From assembly GCA_003223215.1 (NCBI GenBank), contig QHYH01000148.1, positions 1 to 33,324 on the forward strand: a DNA stretch of 33,324 nucleotides, in the 5' to 3' direction. A program made the translations under genes and the position numbers. Positions within the stretch are counted from its first letter, which is position 1. Each line of letters starts with the position of its first letter. Of this stretch, positions 376 through 29,142 are shown piece by piece. This DNA is from Acidobacteriota bacterium (GTDB taxonomy: Bacteria; Acidobacteriota; Terriglobia; Acidiferrales; UBA7541). The notes under the pieces are model-generated. The model saw nothing but the letters and a program-made list of their open reading frames with translations, did no database searches and had not been told where the DNA came from.

Positions 376-1137
376 CTAGATTCCAGGGCTCGATCTGTGC
401 GGCTCTGCATCGTCGAAGAGTGCTTGTCGGAACAACTTGTCTCCGGCGACCACGAATGCACAAGCTCGCGGGAGCCGAAGCGTCAGTGCACAAGCGGGGA
501 GCGCACGTCTCACCAAGGACATGAGTGAGGTCGTCGCCCACTGCCGCGGGCTTTTGTCTAATAGCCACCACAGAATAATCGCCAGGTGTACTAGATAAAG
601 GAGTCGACCCAATGCTGCCGCAACCTCTGGCCGAGGCGCGTCGGTCGCGCCGACCACGGCATCGTGGAAGACCTTGTGCACTCGCTGTCGTGAGAACGCT
701 GTGGCCGGCGTAAACAGCCCCTCATTCGCGTCACCGATCAGCACCGGAACCAGGGCGGCGAGGGTGCTCCGATGAGGACTCAGAACCTGCAAACTCGTGG
801 TGAGTGCGAACATGAGCCGGTCGCGCCACTTGCCAATCTTCATTTCTGCCGCCCGAGAGGCGTATTTGGCGGAGAGTTCGTCGTATAGCGCAAGGATCAC
901 CGCACGCTTGCTCGGAAAGTAGCGGTAGAGAAGGCCGACGCTGACGCCCGCTCGGTCCGCCACGTCTCGTAGTGTCGTCGCCTCGTAGCCACGCTCGGCA
1001 ATCAGTGCGATGGCCGTGTTGTAAAGGCTGAGCCTTGCCGCAACACCCTGCGGTGTTCGCCCTCGCGGCCGGCCCCGGCCACGCCGATTCGGGGTTGCTT
1101 CCGAGCTATATGGCTCCTTGCTATTTTCAGTAAACAT
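376..1137 (-). CDS. TetR/AcrR family transcriptional regulator
   Basis: A 253-residue DNA-binding repressor. A basic N-terminal stretch (RGRGRPRGR, about residues 19-27) precedes a classic TetR helix-turn-helix at about 35-85, with GYEATTLRDVADRAGVSVG and the LLYRYFPSKRAVILALY recognition segment. The remaining 165 residues form the variable ligand and dimer domain, so the effector cannot be predicted. The frame is open further upstream, but ATG 1137 is preferred because it removes a tail that overlaps the divergent gene and because it sits in a 16-bp perfect palindrome (1129-1144). A TTGCCA/TTTAAT promoter (1175-1147) would give an almost leaderless mRNA. The gene diverges from the DCC/DUF4166/DUF2071 operon and probably represses both it and itself. 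Confidence 0.85.
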   Translation of the reverse strand: MFTENSKEPYSSEATPNRRGRGRPRGRTPQGVAARLSLYNTAIALIAERGYEATTLRDVADRAGVSVGLLYRYFPSKRAVILALYDELSAKYASRAAEMKIGKWRDRLMFALTTSLQVLSPHRSTLAALVPVLIGDANEGLFTPATAFSRQRVHKVFHDAVVGATDAPRPEVAAALGRLLYLVHLAIILWWLLDKSPRQWATTSLMSLVRRALPACALTLRLPRACAFVVAGDKLFRQALFDDAEPHRSSPGI

Positions 1138-1146
1138 GTTTACTAT
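1118..1146 (+). promoter_or_regulatory. Possible promoter of the DCC/DUF4166/DUF2071 operon
   Basis: TTGCTA (1118-1123) and TACTAT (1141-1146) are 17 bp apart and flank the 16-bp palindrome. The -10 box is only 4/6 to consensus; TATATT at 1144-1149 is an alternative. Either choice places the transcription start within a few bases of the ATG at 1155, and there is no Shine-Dalgarno sequence. Confidence 0.35.
1129..1144. promoter_or_regulatory. 16-bp perfect palindromic operator between divergent genes
   Basis: AGTAAACATGTTTACT is identical to its reverse complement. It contains the TetR start codon (1137-1135) and ends 10 bp before the start of the divergent DCC gene (1155). A TetR dimer bound here would block both directions. 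The size and symmetry fit known TetR operators. Binding itself is inferred. Confidence 0.7.
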
Positions 1147-1175
1147 ATTAAAGCATGTCTGAGTCAGCTTGGCAA
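1147..1175 (-). promoter_or_regulatory. Promoter of the TetR gene, leaderless geometry
   Basis: On the minus strand TTGCCA (1175-1170) and TTTAAT (1152-1147) are separated by 17 bp, each 5/6 to the sigma70 consensus. The -10 box ends 9 bp before the ATG at 1137, so transcription should begin about 3 nt from the start codon. The promoter lies inside the 5' end of the divergent DCC gene. Confidence 0.5.
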
Positions 1176-1607
1176 ACGTCGATCTCACCCGGAGGCGAAC
1201 ACTTGGTTCTTTACGATGGGGTGTTCGGACTGTGCAATCGTCTGAATAATTTCGTTCTGGCGCGCGACACCCGAGCCGTCTTCGATTTCGCATCTCTCCA
1301 GAGTACGGTTGGTCGGTCTACTTTGGCACGCTTCGGGAGAAATCCGGAGGATCTGAACACCTTTTATCTCGTGACGAACTACCGGTCCGAATCACCGGCA
1401 CTCCTCTCCAAGGCCAGCGCGGCGCTGTTCGTGACGAAGAAGCTTGGCGACCCGTGGCGTTGGTTGAGGCTCTTCGGAGTCTTTCCAAGTGCGTTACTGG
1501 ATCGGGCCTACGACCTGACTGCTCGATACCGCTATCGGCTCTTCGGGCGATACGAGAGCTGTTTGATGCCGAGTGCGGAATACAAGAAGCGTTTCATCGA
1601 CCCATGA
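1155..1607 (+). CDS. DUF393 (DCC / YuxK-like) thiol-oxidoreductase family protein, first Cys replaced
   Basis: A 150-residue protein of the DCC family, thioredoxin-like proteins named for a conserved Asp-Cys-Cys signature. The family core is seen in order: LVLYDGVFGLCNR (18-29), a middle segment ending SKASAALFVTKKLG, and a C-terminal RYRLFGRYESCLMP. The usual YDGxCGxC motif reads YDGVFGLC, so the first cysteine is Phe24 and only Cys27 remains; CxxC-type redox chemistry is therefore unlikely unless Cys137 substitutes. It is the first gene of an operon and overlaps the next gene by 4 bp (ATGA at 1604-1607). The precise role of the family is unknown; in other genomes it often travels with DoxX and DUF4166 proteins. 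Confidence 0.8.
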   Translation: MSESAWQTSISPGGEHLVLYDGVFGLCNRLNNFVLARDTRAVFDFASLQSTVGRSTLARFGRNPEDLNTFYLVTNYRSESPALLSKASAALFVTKKLGDPWRWLRLFGVFPSALLDRAYDLTARYRYRLFGRYESCLMPSAEYKKRFIDP

Positions 1608-3370
1608 AGCTCACCGCTGAAACTCTCATCAAGTCGGATCGAGAAACCGTTTGGCGTCTATCGCAGACGCCGCTCCTTCACGCGAGATGGGATCTCCGAT
1701 TCACCGACATCGAGTACCTACCTCGTGAGTCGGCCGCCGAACCCCAACGCTTTCGTTACGCAACCCGCATCGGCTTTGGCCTTGCAGTGAAGGGATGGGG
1801 TGAAACGATCGGTGATCCAGAGCGCTCGACATCAGCACTCAGGTTCGGTTCAACTGACGCCAAGTCCATCATCCGGGAAGGCACGGGGTCATGGACATAC
1901 AGTGAGCAAGCCGGGACGGTTCGCTTCAGCACTGTCTACGACTACACAATCCGCCACGGTTGGTTCGGGCGTGTGCTCGATCTGCTGTTTCGTCCACTCA
2001 TGATTTGGGCGACCCGATGGAGCTTCGATCGACTACGCATCTGGATCGAAGATGGCGTTCAACCCGAGACATCTTTTCGGCTATGGCTCCTCAAGGTCGT
2101 CGCGCGCTGCGCGCTGGCGCTCAGTTGGATCTACGAAGGGCTGATTCCGAAAATCCTGATTCAGCGAGCGAACGAGCTTGCTCTCGTTCAGCAGGCGGGT
2201 CTGTATTGGCGCACACCTGGTCGTACGCTCGCCGCGTTGGGCCTTACAGAAATCGCGTTTGGACTCTGGCTTCTCTTGGGCCGCTTCGAAAAACTTGCCG
2301 CCATCCTCTCCACTATCGGCATCGTTTCGCTCGCCACTCTCGTGACATCGCTGCACCCGGCAGTTCTAGCCGATCCGCTTGGTGGAATTTCGAAGAATCT
2401 GGGGCTTCTAGCTTGCGGGCTAATCGTCTGGGGCCTGTCTGATCTTTCGCCCTTGGCTTCCCGCGCGAAACCTCGCCAGCGTCACGAGACGGGGGATGGA
2501 GTGCGGTCGCCTTTTGCCGAAGCCCTGCGCGAAGATCTTCATCTCGCGGCGCCGCTTGTGCGCGCACATCTGACGCCAGAGCTGGGAGTCTGCACGTTCC
2601 AAGGCACTATGAAAAGCGTGTGGCGCATCGAAGGGCTCCGCCGATGGCTCAGCGCTCCGTTTCTATGGGTGGGGAGCTGGATGCACACGCTGTTTCCCGA
2701 GACTGGAGACGGAATCCCATTCCAGGTCGTGAATCGGTTCTTCATCGGAACAGACGGTATCGCTCGCATGACGTTCGAACGCAGGTTTCATTTTCCGGGC
2801 GTTGACCGGCGCTTTGAAGCGACAATGCGATATGACGAAAAAGCTGATGTGATCCTGGACGCTCTCGGCCACAGACGTCACCTTCTGGTCGAGCTCGTTC
2901 CGACTATCGAAGATGGCGCCATCACGCTCCGATCGCGTCGCCAGTGGCTCACGCCGTTCGGGTTGCCAATTCGAATCCGCTTACCGCGATTCCTCGCCGG
3001 TGAAGCCGCGATTGAAGAGTGGCAGGAGAGCGAGACATCGTTGGGCATCCGCGTGACCATTTCTAATCGGCTGTTCGGGGCATTCTTCGGCTACGAAGGA
3101 GCATTCGAACGAACCGATGGAGTGGCCGACAACGTTCAACGAGTAGTCCCCGCTTCGACCGTAGATCGGCATCTTTCAGGCGCGGCGCGAGTCGGGCTGG
3201 TTCTGGCTGGTTCTGGCTGCGGTCATTGGAACAGCAGCCTACGGGGCAAGCTTTGGGGTTGGTTCCATTTCGAATTGGGCAAGGGTCTGGGGCACCCGTG
3301 TCGCCTTAGCCGCTGGACTTTCGTGGCCCATGTTCGGGCTTGCGTTGCTTTTAGCGCGTCGAGCTGGTAG
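1604..3370 (+). CDS. SRPBCC / DoxX-like / DUF4166 membrane protein, frameshifted near its C-terminus
   Basis: The start at 1604 overlaps the stop of the DCC gene (ATGA); a longer upstream frame is rejected as lying inside that gene. Three modules are visible: a START/SRPBCC-like region (about 1-150), a DoxX-like four-helix membrane unit (about 165-285, with WRTPGRTLAALGLTEIAFG and LHPAVLADPLGG), and a DUF4166 domain (about 325-505, from LGVCTFQGTMKSVWR to FFGYEGAFER). After about residue 520 the frame drifts into low-quality sequence and stops at 3370. Removing one 10-bp unit of a tandem repeat at 3195-3214 joins it to the frame ending at 3653, giving about 679 residues with further membrane helices. 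The function is unknown; a lipid or small-molecule handling role is only a guess. Confidence 0.8.
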   Translation: MKLTAETLIKSDRETVWRLSQTPLLHARWDLRFTDIEYLPRESAAEPQRFRYATRIGFGLAVKGWGETIGDPERSTSALRFGSTDAKSIIREGTGSWTYSEQAGTVRFSTVYDYTIRHGWFGRVLDLLFRPLMIWATRWSFDRLRIWIEDGVQPETSFRLWLLKVVARCALALSWIYEGLIPKILIQRANELALVQQAGLYWRTPGRTLAALGLTEIAFGLWLLLGRFEKLAAILSTIGIVSLATLVTSLHPAVLADPLGGISKNLGLLACGLIVWGLSDLSPLASRAKPRQRHETGDGVRSPFAEALREDLHLAAPLVRAHLTPELGVCTFQGTMKSVWRIEGLRRWLSAPFLWVGSWMHTLFPETGDGIPFQVVNRFFIGTDGIARMTFERRFHFPGVDRRFEATMRYDEKADVILDALGHRRHLLVELVPTIEDGAITLRSRRQWLTPFGLPIRIRLPRFLAGEAAIEEWQESETSLGIRVTISNRLFGAFFGYEGAFERTDGVADNVQRVVPASTVDRHLSGAARVGLVLAGSGCGHWNSSLRGKLWGWFHFELGKGLGHPCRLSRWTFVAHVRACVAFSASSW

Positions 3371-3653
3371 CGCCTGGGAGTGGTTTGATACCTGTCTGCG
3401 CACGATGGCTCTAGGGATCGCGCTGTTGAGTTTTGCGAGTGTAGTCAACCTAGCCGTGGCCACTACCGCGTCGCGTAGGGGAAGCACCGCTTTCGTCGCT
3501 GTGCATCTCGCGCTCCTGCTGGTAGCGGATGTATCGATGGCGGTCTACTTCACGCGCAAGGCGCTCCGCCTGGGGATGCCACTGAGCATAGCGGTGATTC
3601 TGTGGGTTGGAGTATTGAATGGCACGTTTGCGCTTTTGTTGGTCCTGCCATGA
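3165..3653 (+). pseudogene. Displaced C-terminal membrane segment of the DUF4166 protein
   Basis: This frame opens after a stop at 3162-3164 and has no ATG until 3330, yet it reads as good membrane protein well before that: GWFWLVLAAVIGTAAYGASF, then ALAAGLSWPMFGLALLLARR, and two more hydrophobic segments to LNGTFALLLVLP. About four helices are predicted. It is therefore best read as the 3' end of the gene at 1604, cut off by the 10-bp duplication at 3195-3214. An alternative is a separate 107-residue gene starting at 3330. Its stop overlaps the start of the DUF2071 gene (ATGA at 3650-3653), so the original operon was fully coupled. Confidence 0.7.
3195..3219 (+). repeat. 10-bp tandem repeat, 2.5 copies, at the frameshift
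   Basis: GGCTGGTTCT occurs at 3195-3204 and 3205-3214, followed by GGCTG at 3215-3219. Two units put the downstream membrane segment out of frame; one unit would restore a single reading frame. It is a likely replication-slippage site. Confidence 0.85.
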
Positions 3654-4387
3654 AATTAGAGATGGTCGGTAGGCTCGACGAGTGCTTTCTCTTGTCGTAC
3701 GGAATTGATCCCGCGCAGGCAGCCGGGCTTGTGCCAGCGGGGCTCGAGCTGATTACCTGTCGCGGGGCGGCGTTCTTCAACATCGTCATCTGTCACGTGG
3801 ATCGGATGAGGGCGCGTTTCACGCCACGCGCGCTCGGCGTGACGTACTGGCACATCGCGTATCGAGTTCAGGTTCGAGCAACCCTCGCCGATGATCGGCC
3901 GATTGAAGGGCTATATTTTCTGCGCAGCGATATTGATCGTCCGGTGTTCGGTGTCATTGGGAACAGGCTCACCGACTTTCACTTCCACGCCGCGAGGGTT
4001 CGATTCTCGAACAGCGACGAAGCGGCTTGGAGGCTCCGCGTGGAGCCAACAGCGGGCGACGCACTGGCGTCCCTCGCGGTTCGTCGCGCAGCGAGCAATT
4101 CGTTAGCGCCAGGTTCACCGTTTGCGTCATTGGAAGAGCGCGAGCGAGTGCTGAAGTACGCGCCGTTTGGACTATCGGTTTCCAAGTCGGGGCAATGCCT
4201 GCGTGTTGCTGAGGTGATTCGCGACGAGGCTCGGTGGAGAGAAGAGCCTGTCGAGGTGGAAGCTGCAGACTGGTCCTACCCTCGCAGCTTGGGCTTGCGC
4301 GACCTGCGGCTCGTGCGGGCGACCCGCGTGGCGCCGATTGATTACCGATGGCGAATCGGACGAACCGAACGGCTCGGGTCCATGTGA
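3650..4387 (+). CDS. DUF2071 (YqjF-like) family protein
   Basis: 245 residues with features of the DUF2071/COG3361 family, which has an acetoacetate-decarboxylase-like fold: a VTYWHIAYRVQV segment, GLYFLRSDIDRPVFGVIGNRLTDFHFHAARV, and a C-terminal strand series ending LVRATRVAPIDYRWR. The start at 3650 overlaps the previous stop by 4 bp and removes a 16-residue extension that would lie in the upstream gene. It is the last gene of the TetR-controlled operon. The family's substrate is unknown. The length is normal and nothing in it looks broken. Confidence 0.8.
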   Translation: MKLEMVGRLDECFLLSYGIDPAQAAGLVPAGLELITCRGAAFFNIVICHVDRMRARFTPRALGVTYWHIAYRVQVRATLADDRPIEGLYFLRSDIDRPVFGVIGNRLTDFHFHAARVRFSNSDEAAWRLRVEPTAGDALASLAVRRAASNSLAPGSPFASLEERERVLKYAPFGLSVSKSGQCLRVAEVIRDEARWREEPVEVEAADWSYPRSLGLRDLRLVRATRVAPIDYRWRIGRTERLGSM

Positions 4388-4743: not shown

Positions 4744-4809
<66 letters not shown>

Positions 4810-5157
4810 GGGTGATTGCGCTCTGGCTCGCTGGTAAGTTGGTGAAAAGTAAAGACGCCGTTCGGCTCGCTCCGGATGGTTTGGGCACGGTTGGCAGGTT
4901 ATTGGGATAAATTGGGATAAAGGCTGCGAGCCGGACAAACAAACATTGACCCGCCGCCTTCCGGGACCGCCTGATGCTTGAATGGACTCCGGCTCGCGAG
5001 CGGGAGAAACACAAAGATGCGAGAGGTTTGCTTTCCGTGGCCGAAAATTCCAAGCAGCCTGAGAAAAACTGGTGCTCGATTCCGTCGCGCGCTAGGTACT
5101 GATTCTTCAGGAACCTGATGGTCGCCCGCGCCGCCGTCGCTCGACACGTGGACGCCA
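4810..5157. other. Island edge without a recognised gene
   Basis: About 350 bp between the tRNA fragment and the end of the TonB receptor gene. A 124-codon minus-strand frame crosses it but runs into the tRNA fragment and has no recognisable domain. A tandem direct repeat lies at 4901-4920. Confidence 0.5.
4901..4920 (+). repeat. Tandem ATTGGGATAA x2 near the left tRNA fragment
   Basis: Two exact adjacent 10-bp copies starting 92 bp inside the left repeat. The core TTGGGATA occurs again twice in tandem at 17090-17106, about 80 bp inside the other end. Paired short repeats near att sites can be integrase arm-binding sites; this is only a suggestion. Confidence 0.4.
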
Positions 5158-14559: not shown

Positions 14560-15438
14560 TTACTCGTAACGCAAGGCGACCATAGGATCGACGCGCGTAG
14601 CACGCCGCGCCGGAAGTGATGCCGCAAAGATGGCACAGACGGCAAGAACGAGGGCAGCAATCGCAATGATCATTGGATCGTAGCTCTTGACGCCCCAGAG
14701 CTGGCTCGCCAGCACGCGGCTTCCTGCCAGTGCGGCCGGTACACCGATCACCAAACCGAGTCCGATTTGTGTCAGTGCAGCGCGCAGCACCAGGGAAAGG
14801 ACATTCCTGCGGTCGGCACCGAGCGCCATGCGGATTCCGATCTCGTTGGTTCGTCGCTCGACGGAATAAGCCGTTACCCCGTAAACTCCAACGCAAGCCA
14901 GGACGAGCGCGAGTCCGCCAAAGAGCTCCGTAAGCCGCGCGATCTGCACTTTCCGCTTCGGCGAGAATGGATATCCGTTCTCTCTGCCCAATTGCACCTT
15001 CCACGGAGAAATCATCAGGATCTCGATGTAGCGAAGCAATTGAGACGAAATACCGCCTACTTCCTGCGTTGCCTTGCGCTTCCCCCTGCGGTCGTATTCA
15101 CTTCCTACGAGCGGTGATAGAAATTCCGCGTAGAACCCGCCCCCTTTTCCATAGTGGTAGTGCGTTGCCGGTGGCCAATCCTCGCCCACAAACTCTTCCA
15201 CGAAACCGGCGTCCAACAAACGTTTCCGAACACTCAACTCCCGCGCCTTGAGTTTCGGAGGCACGGCGACGTCTCCGTCGAGCGTGATTAGCGGAAGATA
15301 GGCGAGTCTTCGGGCGAGAGGATGACGCCGGTACAGCCGGTGGGCCCACCCACCGATAAGCACGACCTCACACAGCCACGGCTCAAGCGCACCGATAAAT
15401 TTCGAAAATGCCTCGAGTTCTCGATCTCGTTCATTCAT
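14560..15438 (-). CDS. Chimera: AbiEii-like nucleotidyltransferase N-part fused to an ADOP/FtsX permease C-terminus
   Basis: 292 residues. Residues 1-165 look like a nucleotidyltransferase-fold toxin of the AbiEii/GSU2403 type: VVLIGGWAHRLYRR (26-38) holds the GG signature and ITLDGDVAVP (51-60) the paired acidic metal ligands (D54, D56). After KVQIA (163-167) the sequence switches to the C-terminal FtsX module of an ADOP permease: ELFGGLALVLACVGVYG, RTNEIGIRMALGADR, three hydrophobic helices and the terminal LPARRATRVDPMVALRYE. The toxin C-terminus is lost. The junction maps to about 14938-14946. The start overlaps the stop of the nuclease/antitoxin gene (ATGA, 15435-15438), so they form an operon. 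Whether the chimera is expressed or active is unknown. Confidence 0.8.
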   Translation of the reverse strand: MNERDRELEAFSKFIGALEPWLCEVVLIGGWAHRLYRRHPLARRLAYLPLITLDGDVAVPPKLKARELSVRKRLLDAGFVEEFVGEDWPPATHYHYGKGGGFYAEFLSPLVGSEYDRRGKRKATQEVGGISSQLLRYIEILMISPWKVQLGRENGYPFSPKRKVQIARLTELFGGLALVLACVGVYGVTAYSVERRTNEIGIRMALGADRRNVLSLVLRAALTQIGLGLVIGVPAALAGSRVLASQLWGVKSYDPMIIAIAALVLAVCAIFAASLPARRATRVDPMVALRYE

Positions 15439-17184: not shown

Positions 17185-17186
17185 TC

Positions 17187-17259
<73 letters not shown>

Positions 17260-17280
<21 letters not shown>

Positions 17281-17600
17281 GCGGTTTGGTTTCAACAGCT
17301 TACCACACTGCCCTAATTTATTTGGTGCACTTTTGGTGCACTCTGACTCATGGCGTCCAAAGAACTCTCTAGTTCTCATCGCTGCACGCACCGCAGGATC
17401 GAATGCTTTGATGTAGCGCTCTTTGGTCACGTGCGATTTTGCATGGCGCAAGACGCGTTGCACAACTTTCTCATCCGCACCAAGTTCATACAGGTTCGAC
17501 GCAATGCCACGCCGGAACCCATGCCAGCCATACCATTCCAACTCGATTCTTTACGAGTGGACGGATGACCTGCTGGGCCAGCTTGTCCAAGTCCATCGGC
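17260..17600 (-). pseudogene. C-terminal remnant of a tyrosine recombinase (phage-type integrase), frameshifted
   Basis: The minus-strand frame ending at 17242 contains WYGWHGFRRGIASNLYELGA, VQRVLRHAKSHVTKERYIK. This is the end of a tyrosine-integrase catalytic domain with the HxxR motif, the second His in LRH and the nucleophile Tyr in RYIK. Just upstream, MDLDKLAQQVIRPLVKNR in another frame is the expected preceding segment; one extra G near 17543 breaks the frame. The N-terminal arm-binding and core-binding domains are missing. The frame has no stop of its own and runs into the tRNA-Ser gene. It marks the integrase of a former element using this tRNA as its site. Confidence 0.75.
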
Positions 17601-22556: not shown

Positions 22557-23966
22557 ATGAAGACCTGGCATAAAGTGGCGATTGGGTCGGGCGTCGTGGT
22601 GGTGCTTGGCGGCATTGTTCTTTTCAGCGTAAACCAGGCGAACAAGGGCATGGTTACTGTGCAAACGGCCAAGGTGACGAAGCAGGACAGCTTGGTGTCC
22701 CTGGTAACAGCATCGGGTGAAATCAAGCCAACGACCTACACAAACATAGCCGCGCAAGGATACGGCAGAATTACACAGATATTTGTTAAGGAAGGCGATC
22801 ACGTAAGAAAGGGTGACAAGCTGCTTACACAGGAAAATGTGCAAGCAAGCGCCGACGTGCAGGCCCAGGAGGCGGCGAGCAATTCCGCGGAGTCCGGAGT
22901 TCAGGCGGCCGAAGCCAGTTACAAAGCGGCGCAAGCGGACTTGATTTCGCAGCAAGCCAACCTCGAAAAAGCCAGGCTCGACTATGATCGCGGGCAAGGG
23001 CTTTATAAGGACGGATTGATCCCTAAGCAGGACTTCGATCAGAGAAAAACGACTTACGACGGAGCTGTGGCGAGCGTTGATTCGGCAAAGGCGCGTGTTT
23101 CGCTCCTGAAGGCGCAGATGGAACAGTCGCGCTCACAGCTGAATCAGAGCCGCGCCCAGCTCGTCCACACCCAGGACATTCTGCACAAGACCGTTTATAC
23201 CTCGCCGATCAATGGGATTGTTAGCTATCTGCCGGAACGCGTGGGCGACTACGTCGTTATGGGCATACAGAACCAGCCAGGCAGTTTCATCATGACACTG
23301 TCTGACATGTCGACTGTCACTGCCGAGGTCAAGGTGGATGAAACGGATATCGTCAGCGTGAAGCTGGGGCAAGATGGCGACGTAAACATCGACGCGATTC
23401 CAGGGAAAGTGTTCAAAGGCAAGGTAACGGAAGTGGGCTCGCAAGCTGTCCTGCGCAGTTCCGGCCTTACGACCACGCAGACCACCACCAGCACACAAGA
23501 AGCGAAAGACTTCAAGGTTGTCGTGACTCTGGAAAATCCACCTGACAACGTGCGGCCCGGCCTTTCTGCCACGGCAAAAATCAAGACGGCGGAGCGGAAA
23601 AATGTGATTGCCGTCCCCATCCAGGCTCTCGCGATGCGTACGCGCAAGGAATTGGAGGAAGCCGCCAAGAACGCAAAGGGTCAAGGCGGTTCCGGCGTAA
23701 CCCTCGCTGCGCCCCCGCCGGCTGCTCCTGGCGATATCAAAAAGGATGAAATTCAGGGCGTTTTTGTAGTGAATGGCAAGAAGGCAGTATTTCGGTCGGT
23801 GGAAACCGGCATCTCCGGCGTCACCGACATTGAGATTACCAAGGGCTTGCAGCCCGGCGACGAGATTGTCGTTGGCAGCTACAAAGCCTTGCGCACTTTG
23901 AAGCCGGAAGCTCAGGTCAAAGTGGACAACAGCGCGCCCAAGAGGCAAGACGATCAGCAAAGCTGA
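22557..23966 (+). CDS. MacA/HlyD-family periplasmic adaptor (membrane fusion protein)
   Basis: 469 residues. A transmembrane anchor (about 6-25, [19 protein letters not shown]) is followed by the first half of a biotinyl-lipoyl domain ([30 protein letters not shown]), a long coiled-coil hairpin (about 95-205, Gln/Ala/Ser-rich), the second lipoyl half ([21 protein letters not shown]), a beta-barrel ([19 protein letters not shown]) and a membrane-proximal domain. This is the layout of adaptors in MacAB-TolC-type ABC efflux. The gene lies 25 bp upstream of the matching ATPase gene. The substrate is unknown. Confidence 0.9.
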
Positions 23967-28690: not shown

Positions 28691-29142
28691 GCCTCCGGTA
28701 AGAAACAACCCCGGAGGTATGCTAACTCTTTGCGCACCAATGTCAAGGTGCTCAGACTCTGAGCTTGTATTGTATCGGTCAACCTACCCTGCCCCCCTAC
28801 TTTCGCCAGGCTTTCGCCTGGCGCGGGGCTCGGGCAAGCGGGCTCGATCACGAATAGTATAGTTTTCGCACTTACCAAGAGCAACAGTACGGCAGTACCA
28901 AAAAACTTAGTACTCGCTCCTTACCGCCTAACACCGCGAGTCTACGCCGCTGACTGCGAGTCGGAGTGGCACCTGACATCAAAAACCTATGCCTTTCGCA
29001 TTTCTCGAAAATCTCGAGAGTATTCCAGTGCACTCCGGCTCTGAGTTGGCCCATTGTCGCACAACCGCACAACCGCACAACCGGCCACCGCTTGACACAC
29101 TTCGACGTGAATCCATAGCATTAAGGATTGCTATTAGCATAG
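28691..29142. other. Intergenic with repeats, no gene seen
   Basis: About 450 bp before tRNA-Met. It contains a strong stem-loop at 28804-28823 (CGCCAGG / CCTGGCG, 6-nt loop) and three tandem GCACAACC units at 29059-29082. Small open frames are not protein-like. Confidence 0.5.
29059..29082 (+). repeat. 8-bp tandem repeat, three copies
   Basis: GCACAACC occurs three times in a row (29059-29066, 29067-29074, 29075-29082), 60 bp upstream of tRNA-Met. It is a simple repeat of unknown meaning, probably a slippage product. Confidence 0.7.

Follow-up and report, generated by a model that had tools for sequence, protein, structure and literature searches.

A short duplication at a frame break

We asked whether a short tandem duplication inside a DUF4166 membrane protein gene is a reversible genetic switch, as an initial annotation of the sequence had proposed, or an ordinary mutation. 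The window, meaning the whole stretch of DNA that was analysed, comprises the 33,324 nucleotides of contig QHYH01000148.1 from an Acidobacteriota bacterium (assembly GCA_003223215.1). The features that bear on the question are as follows.

376..1293, minus strand: divergent ORF of a TetR-family regulator (TetR_N match at residues 92-136)
1155..1607, plus strand: DCC1-like thiol-disulfide oxidoreductase gene (Pfam and ORF evidence; arranged likewise in the relative bog_174), its stop overlapping ATG 1604 as ATGA (1604/1607)
1604..3370, plus strand: frame A, an ORF of 588 aa with an N-terminal part, DoxX_3, DUF4166 and an out-of-frame end (ORF and Pfam scan)
3165..3653, plus strand: frame B, 162 open codons holding the displaced hydrophobic tail (ORF reading)
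3195..3219, plus strand: exact tandem duplication of the 10-bp unit GGCTGGTTCT, 2.5 copies (sequence inspection)
3650..4387, plus strand: DUF2071 gene, 245 aa from ATG 3650, 86% identical to the bog_174 copy (ORF and comparison)

The duplication proved to be as first described. Positions 3195-3219 read GGCTGGTTCT twice in tandem followed by GGCTG, and the two full copies are identical, as a young duplication would give. Beyond the array, the 10-mer occurs once more in the window, on the minus strand at 23269; none of 100 shuffles of the window reached these three occurrences or more. The unit lies within an ORF, its length is not divisible by three, and the frames split exactly at the repeat. 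With only two full copies, the array lacks the several copies of a hypermutable one.

Frame A encodes DoxX_3 (PF13781, residues 172-270; 65.1 bits against a Pfam gathering cut-off of 25) and DUF4166 (PF13761, residues 327-501; 119.5 bits against a cut-off of 23), preceded by an N-terminal part without a Pfam match. Past the repeat it reads about 50 out-of-frame residues up to a TAG at 3368-3370. Frame B overlaps it by about 200 nt, and its earliest ATG, GTG or TTG is the ATG at 3330, although the frame is open from 3165; this agrees with the earlier remark that the downstream frame is membrane-like well before any start codon. Positions 1604-3653 span 2050 bases, and taking away 10 leaves 680 codons, that is, 679 aa and a stop. 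The single 679-residue frame foreseen on removal of one copy is thus arithmetically correct, and bog_174 carries an intact ORF of this very length.

The frame B tail contains five hydrophobic segments (Kyte-Doolittle, 19-residue window, threshold 1.6), the same count as in the bog_174 tail, for which a low-confidence structure model (two sequences, mean pLDDT 50.9) gives five helices. We take the displaced tail to hold about five predicted membrane segments, so that the loss of a membrane tail claimed in the initial annotation stands while its count of four helices does not. The frame B tail gave no Pfam match at E 0.1 and no NCBIfam match at E 0.5, and the bog_174 tail gave a single weak NCBIfam match (12.9 bits against a cut-off of 408). 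When the bases of the tail's 148-codon stretch were shuffled, 17 of 2000 outcomes were free of stops. For annotation, one frameshifted gene should be called here rather than a 588-aa protein and a small ORF.

An intact one-frame relative

A pattern scan of genome contigs, which finds close relatives only, matched 19 stretches, one of them a true relative: PMXH01000042.1 (L003), from the MAG Acidobacteriaceae bacterium bog_174, the sole close relative confirmed. The corresponding scan of viral contigs matched two stretches and no relatives. In bog_174 the genes follow the same order as in the window, with a TetR-like ORF on the opposite strand (by eye), the DCC1-like gene, the counterpart gene and DUF2071, and both borders of the counterpart gene are 4-bp ATGA overlaps (1128/1131 and 3164/3167). 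The counterpart itself, which lacks the 10 bp, runs as one ORF without interruption for exactly 679 aa, and within the stretch that the window and bog_174 share, their DNA alignment is broken by a single gap of 10 columns, located at the repeat. The intact homologue, its lack of the 10 bp and the common gene order show that the join between the two frames is real, as had been claimed. They also mark the allele in the window as most likely derived, a polarity that rests on one relative and on the identity of the two copies. The initial annotation had also named copy number in close relatives as a check, and set against its own reading a picture in which all relatives carry two copies and a conserved, separate downstream gene. 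The single relative found, bog_174, lacks the duplication and has no such separate gene.

In this one relative the repeat is not kept at the site: the GGCTGGTTCT unit is absent even when one mismatch is allowed, and the sequence CGGTG-GTTCT-GGTCG has a lag-10 identity of 2/5, compared with 5/5 in the window. The slippage site is therefore not conserved in bog_174. At the corresponding place (2715-2735) bog_174 has a direct repeat of its own, GTCGCG, in frame and 15 bases apart.

We then used the substitutions separating the window from bog_174 to ask in which frame the tail has evolved. Read in frame B, the tail gave dN 0.138 and dS 0.405, a dN/dS of 0.34 (bootstrap 0.20-0.57); its remaining two frames gave 0.70 and 2.69, the latter value being that of frame A. 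Differences in frame B fell on codon positions 1, 2 and 3 in the proportion 29/11/39 (chi-square p = 0.0005). This substitution pattern and the open frame suggest that, for most of the period after the bog_174 lineage separated, the tail served as coding sequence. Its dN/dS is the highest among the regions compared (head 0.09-0.22), with an interval that overlaps those of DoxX (0.22, 0.10-0.44) and the DCC1-like gene (0.27, 0.15-0.45); the N-terminal 160 residues gave 0.09, DUF4166 0.15 and DUF2071 0.16. First positions account for 29 of 79 differences in the tail and 30 of 166 in the head, and the contrast between head and tail in synonymous and nonsynonymous changes gave a Fisher p of 0.07. 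These three features weigh against a very young event. The elevated divergence of the tail may reflect relaxed selection since the frameshift, or simply a tolerant or faster-evolving membrane tail. The window's out-of-frame end also matches the corresponding frame of bog_174 at 46%, a similarity that we set aside because it comes from reading the shared DNA out of frame (dN/dS 2.69).

Distribution of the gene and its tail

Homologues were sought in genus, family, order, class, phylum and bog_174-relative sets, which overlap one another. Within the genus the gene was present in one of 36 genomes, the window's own. Five of 89 family genomes matched, the other four in the DoxX part only, and so did five of 95 order genomes, where the full-length head was confined to the window's own genome and the others again matched in the DoxX part only. 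The class and phylum sets were sampled, with at most two candidate places scored per genome, so that tail homologues may be missed; 23 of 399 class genomes and 8 of 396 phylum genomes matched, the tail being found in no class genome besides the window's own and in no other genome of the phylum set. Among 150 genomes of bog_174 relatives four matched, bog_174 included, and the tail was found in bog_174 alone. Seven plasmid records covered query residues 1-512 at most, none of them reaching the tail. The locus therefore looks like a singleton frameshift, with an intact homologue in bog_174 and no other frameshifted homologue found.

Since none of the 35 other genus genomes yielded the gene, the window's genome may have gained it by transfer. 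That genome measures 8.8 Mb, and the 35 others (some incomplete) range from 3.3 to 8.1 Mb.

Elsewhere the parts of the protein occur in other arrangements. In two class genomes that we read, the DoxX part and DUF4166 lie in separate ORFs, with no tail-like ORF after them by eye. On a Bacillus velezensis plasmid the row is hypothetical protein, DUF4166 and YndJ, and two adjacent ORFs correspond, in the window's order, to the head and to the DUF4166 part, whereas here head and DUF4166 are fused in one protein and followed by a hydrophobic tail. The tail was tried as a piece of YndJ and rejected, as its best BLASTP piece against the B. velezensis YndJ (E = 0.30 over 10 residues) amounts to no similarity. 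Our literature search found no paper mentioning DUF4166 and none naming at least two of yndJ, yndH and yndG.

A probable recent frameshift by slipped-strand duplication

Taken at sequence level, the locus is quite probably a recent, lineage-specific frameshift caused by slipped-strand duplication, an ordinary mutation in which a domain is lost. The ancestor of the window lineage would have carried the intact one-frame form. In its one-copy state the site reads GGCTG-GTTCT-GGCTG (15 bp), a 5-bp direct repeat whose two GGCTG copies lie ten bases apart, so that a replication slip between them would yield exactly the duplicated 10-bp unit. The product would now be a 588-aa protein with DoxX_3 and DUF4166 intact and the C-terminal membrane domain missing. 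Such a truncation may be tolerable, given that tail-less DUF4166 proteins exist in class genomes and on the B. velezensis plasmid, and reversion by a like slippage is possible in principle.

The frameshift may also reach the next gene. In the window the ATGA overlap at 3650/3653, which joins the stop of the tail to the start of DUF2071, belongs to the displaced frame B, and 279 nt separate the frame A stop from ATG 3650. Through loss of this overlap the frameshift probably uncouples the translation of DUF2071, which would then be reduced. Judged from domain names, the operon-like row of DCC1-like, DoxX_3/DUF4166 and DUF2071 genes points to a membrane-linked unit concerned with redox or lipid handling. 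The true start of the divergent TetR-family ORF is probably internal to the longest ORF, since the TetR_N match begins at residue 92.

We next evaluated how common such duplications are, counting exact tandem duplications that span 20 bp or more and have periods of 5-60. The window and 40 further stretches of its genome contained 17 in 688,120 bases, about 25 per Mb, of which 12 had a period not divisible by three, and six genus relatives contained 12 in 385,134 bases, about 31 per Mb. The first 288,220 bases sampled held nine, four of them in the window, compared with none in each of five first-order Markov randomisations. The similar density in the sampled own genome and in the genus relatives indicates that short duplications are an ordinary class here. 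An automatic screen for repeats with overlapping frames returned seven candidates in the window's genome, the repeat at 3195 included, and five in the genus relatives. Eight frames scanned at four of those five gave no Pfam match, and two of these four, L092 near 5500 and L099 near 12790, were rejected as split genes because their repeats lie between genes by eye.

This interpretation is consistent with what the available excerpt of the GeneTack survey says of frameshifted genes that stand alone, which it puts down to probable indel mutations or errors in sequencing (PMC3711429). As with the singletons described in that excerpt, the frame transition here occurs in one genome, the homologue is intact and there is no cluster of frameshifted homologues; the difference is that a tandem repeat sits exactly at the transition (PMC3711429). 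Seen as an ordinary lesion, the locus has little significance beyond annotation.

Switching and other explanations

The claim that the duplication acts as a switch found no support in the comparison: there are two copies only, the unit does not occur in bog_174, where lag-10 identity is 2/5, and the repeat belongs to the ordinary background class. We consider it unlikely that the locus undergoes reversible phase variation, in which gain and loss of the 10-bp unit would toggle the C-terminal membrane domain together with the coupled DUF2071. A unit not divisible by three, identical copies and a tail frame without stops and with coding-like substitutions would all fit such toggling. Just two copies, a slippage-prone 5-bp repeat that is not kept in bog_174 and the lack of any frameshifted homologue in the genomes searched argue against it, as does a gene content that is presumably unlike that of a typical surface-variation gene.

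In Streptococcus pneumoniae, Waite et al. (2001, 2003) reportedly tied phase variation of the capsule to spontaneous sequence duplications within genes. The available part of a paper that cites them for phase variation by such duplications traces acapsular serotype 8 pneumococci to a tandem duplication within wchA (PMC4022640). By analogy with this precedent, in which short intragenic duplications would cause the capsule to vary in phase, the switch idea is not absurd (PMC4022640). As far as that excerpt goes, the likeness lies in a short tandem duplication that inactivates an ORF and may be lost again; the pneumococcal duplications reportedly control phase variation, whereas here we have one static sequence, from an acidobacterium, in a gene without a link to a capsule. 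Phase-variable promoter repeats in Mycobacterium tuberculosis are the subject of another source, also available in part (PMC12817950). In the GeneTack excerpt, phase variation is called from repeats combined with clustering and with a function already tied to variation (PMC3711429). A narrower form of the idea, in which the two-copy duplication would be a slow reversible switch that sets the membrane domain and, via the lost ATGA coupling, the dose of DUF2071, appears to us slightly less plausible again than phase variation at large. Should reads contain both lengths, the locus would offer a clean and testable example, from an environmental bacterium, of a minimal two-copy repeat that switches a reading frame.

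An assembly or consensus error, with a real genome that has one copy, is improbable, a little more so than either form of switching. The genome is a 279-contig draft, and the available portion of the GeneTack survey counts sequencing errors as one of the main sources of frameshifts that stand alone (PMC3711429). Slippage at a 5-bp direct repeat, however, produces just what is seen here, an exact 10-bp duplication that leaves a 5-bp overhang, and other genomes of the genus have duplications of a comparable kind at much the same density, several of them on contigs longer than 300 kb.

Gene fission is very unlikely; the cell would have to make two working products, the 588-aa protein and one of 107 aa started at ATG 3330. 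It would be in keeping with the class genomes in which DUF4166 lacks the tail and is encoded separately from the DoxX part. A protein begun at ATG 3330, though, would miss the whole of the first predicted membrane segment and some of the second. By eye, the sequence ahead of this ATG shows no obvious ribosome-binding site, and the roughly 50 out-of-frame residues that close frame A come from a stretch that, in this frame, evolves unlike protein (dN/dS 2.69). Programmed ribosomal or transcriptional frameshifting that joins both frames would have the overlap of about 200 nt to act in, but it would require a +1 or -2 shift and bog_174 encodes the protein in one frame with no need of recoding, which leaves it the least credible reading, with hardly any probability.

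Other repeats in the window

Three further duplications of the counted class lie at 4901-4921, 17321-17342 and 29058-29083, with periods of 10, 11 and 8, two of them close to the ends of copies of a tRNA-Ser repeat. This is a perfect 66-bp direct repeat (4744-4809 and 17185-17250): the tRNA-Ser(GCT) gene at 17187-17280 on the minus strand has a copy of its 3' part at 4744-4809. The copies resemble the ends of a tRNA-integrated element of about 12.4 kb, inside which lie a TonB-type barrel, PIG-L and TPR proteins; no integrase was recognised among six scanned ORFs between them. The repeat at 3195 is outside this flanked stretch. On the minus strand at 14563-15438, one frame matches both FtsX (the C-terminal permease part) and NTP_transf_8, an odd pairing.
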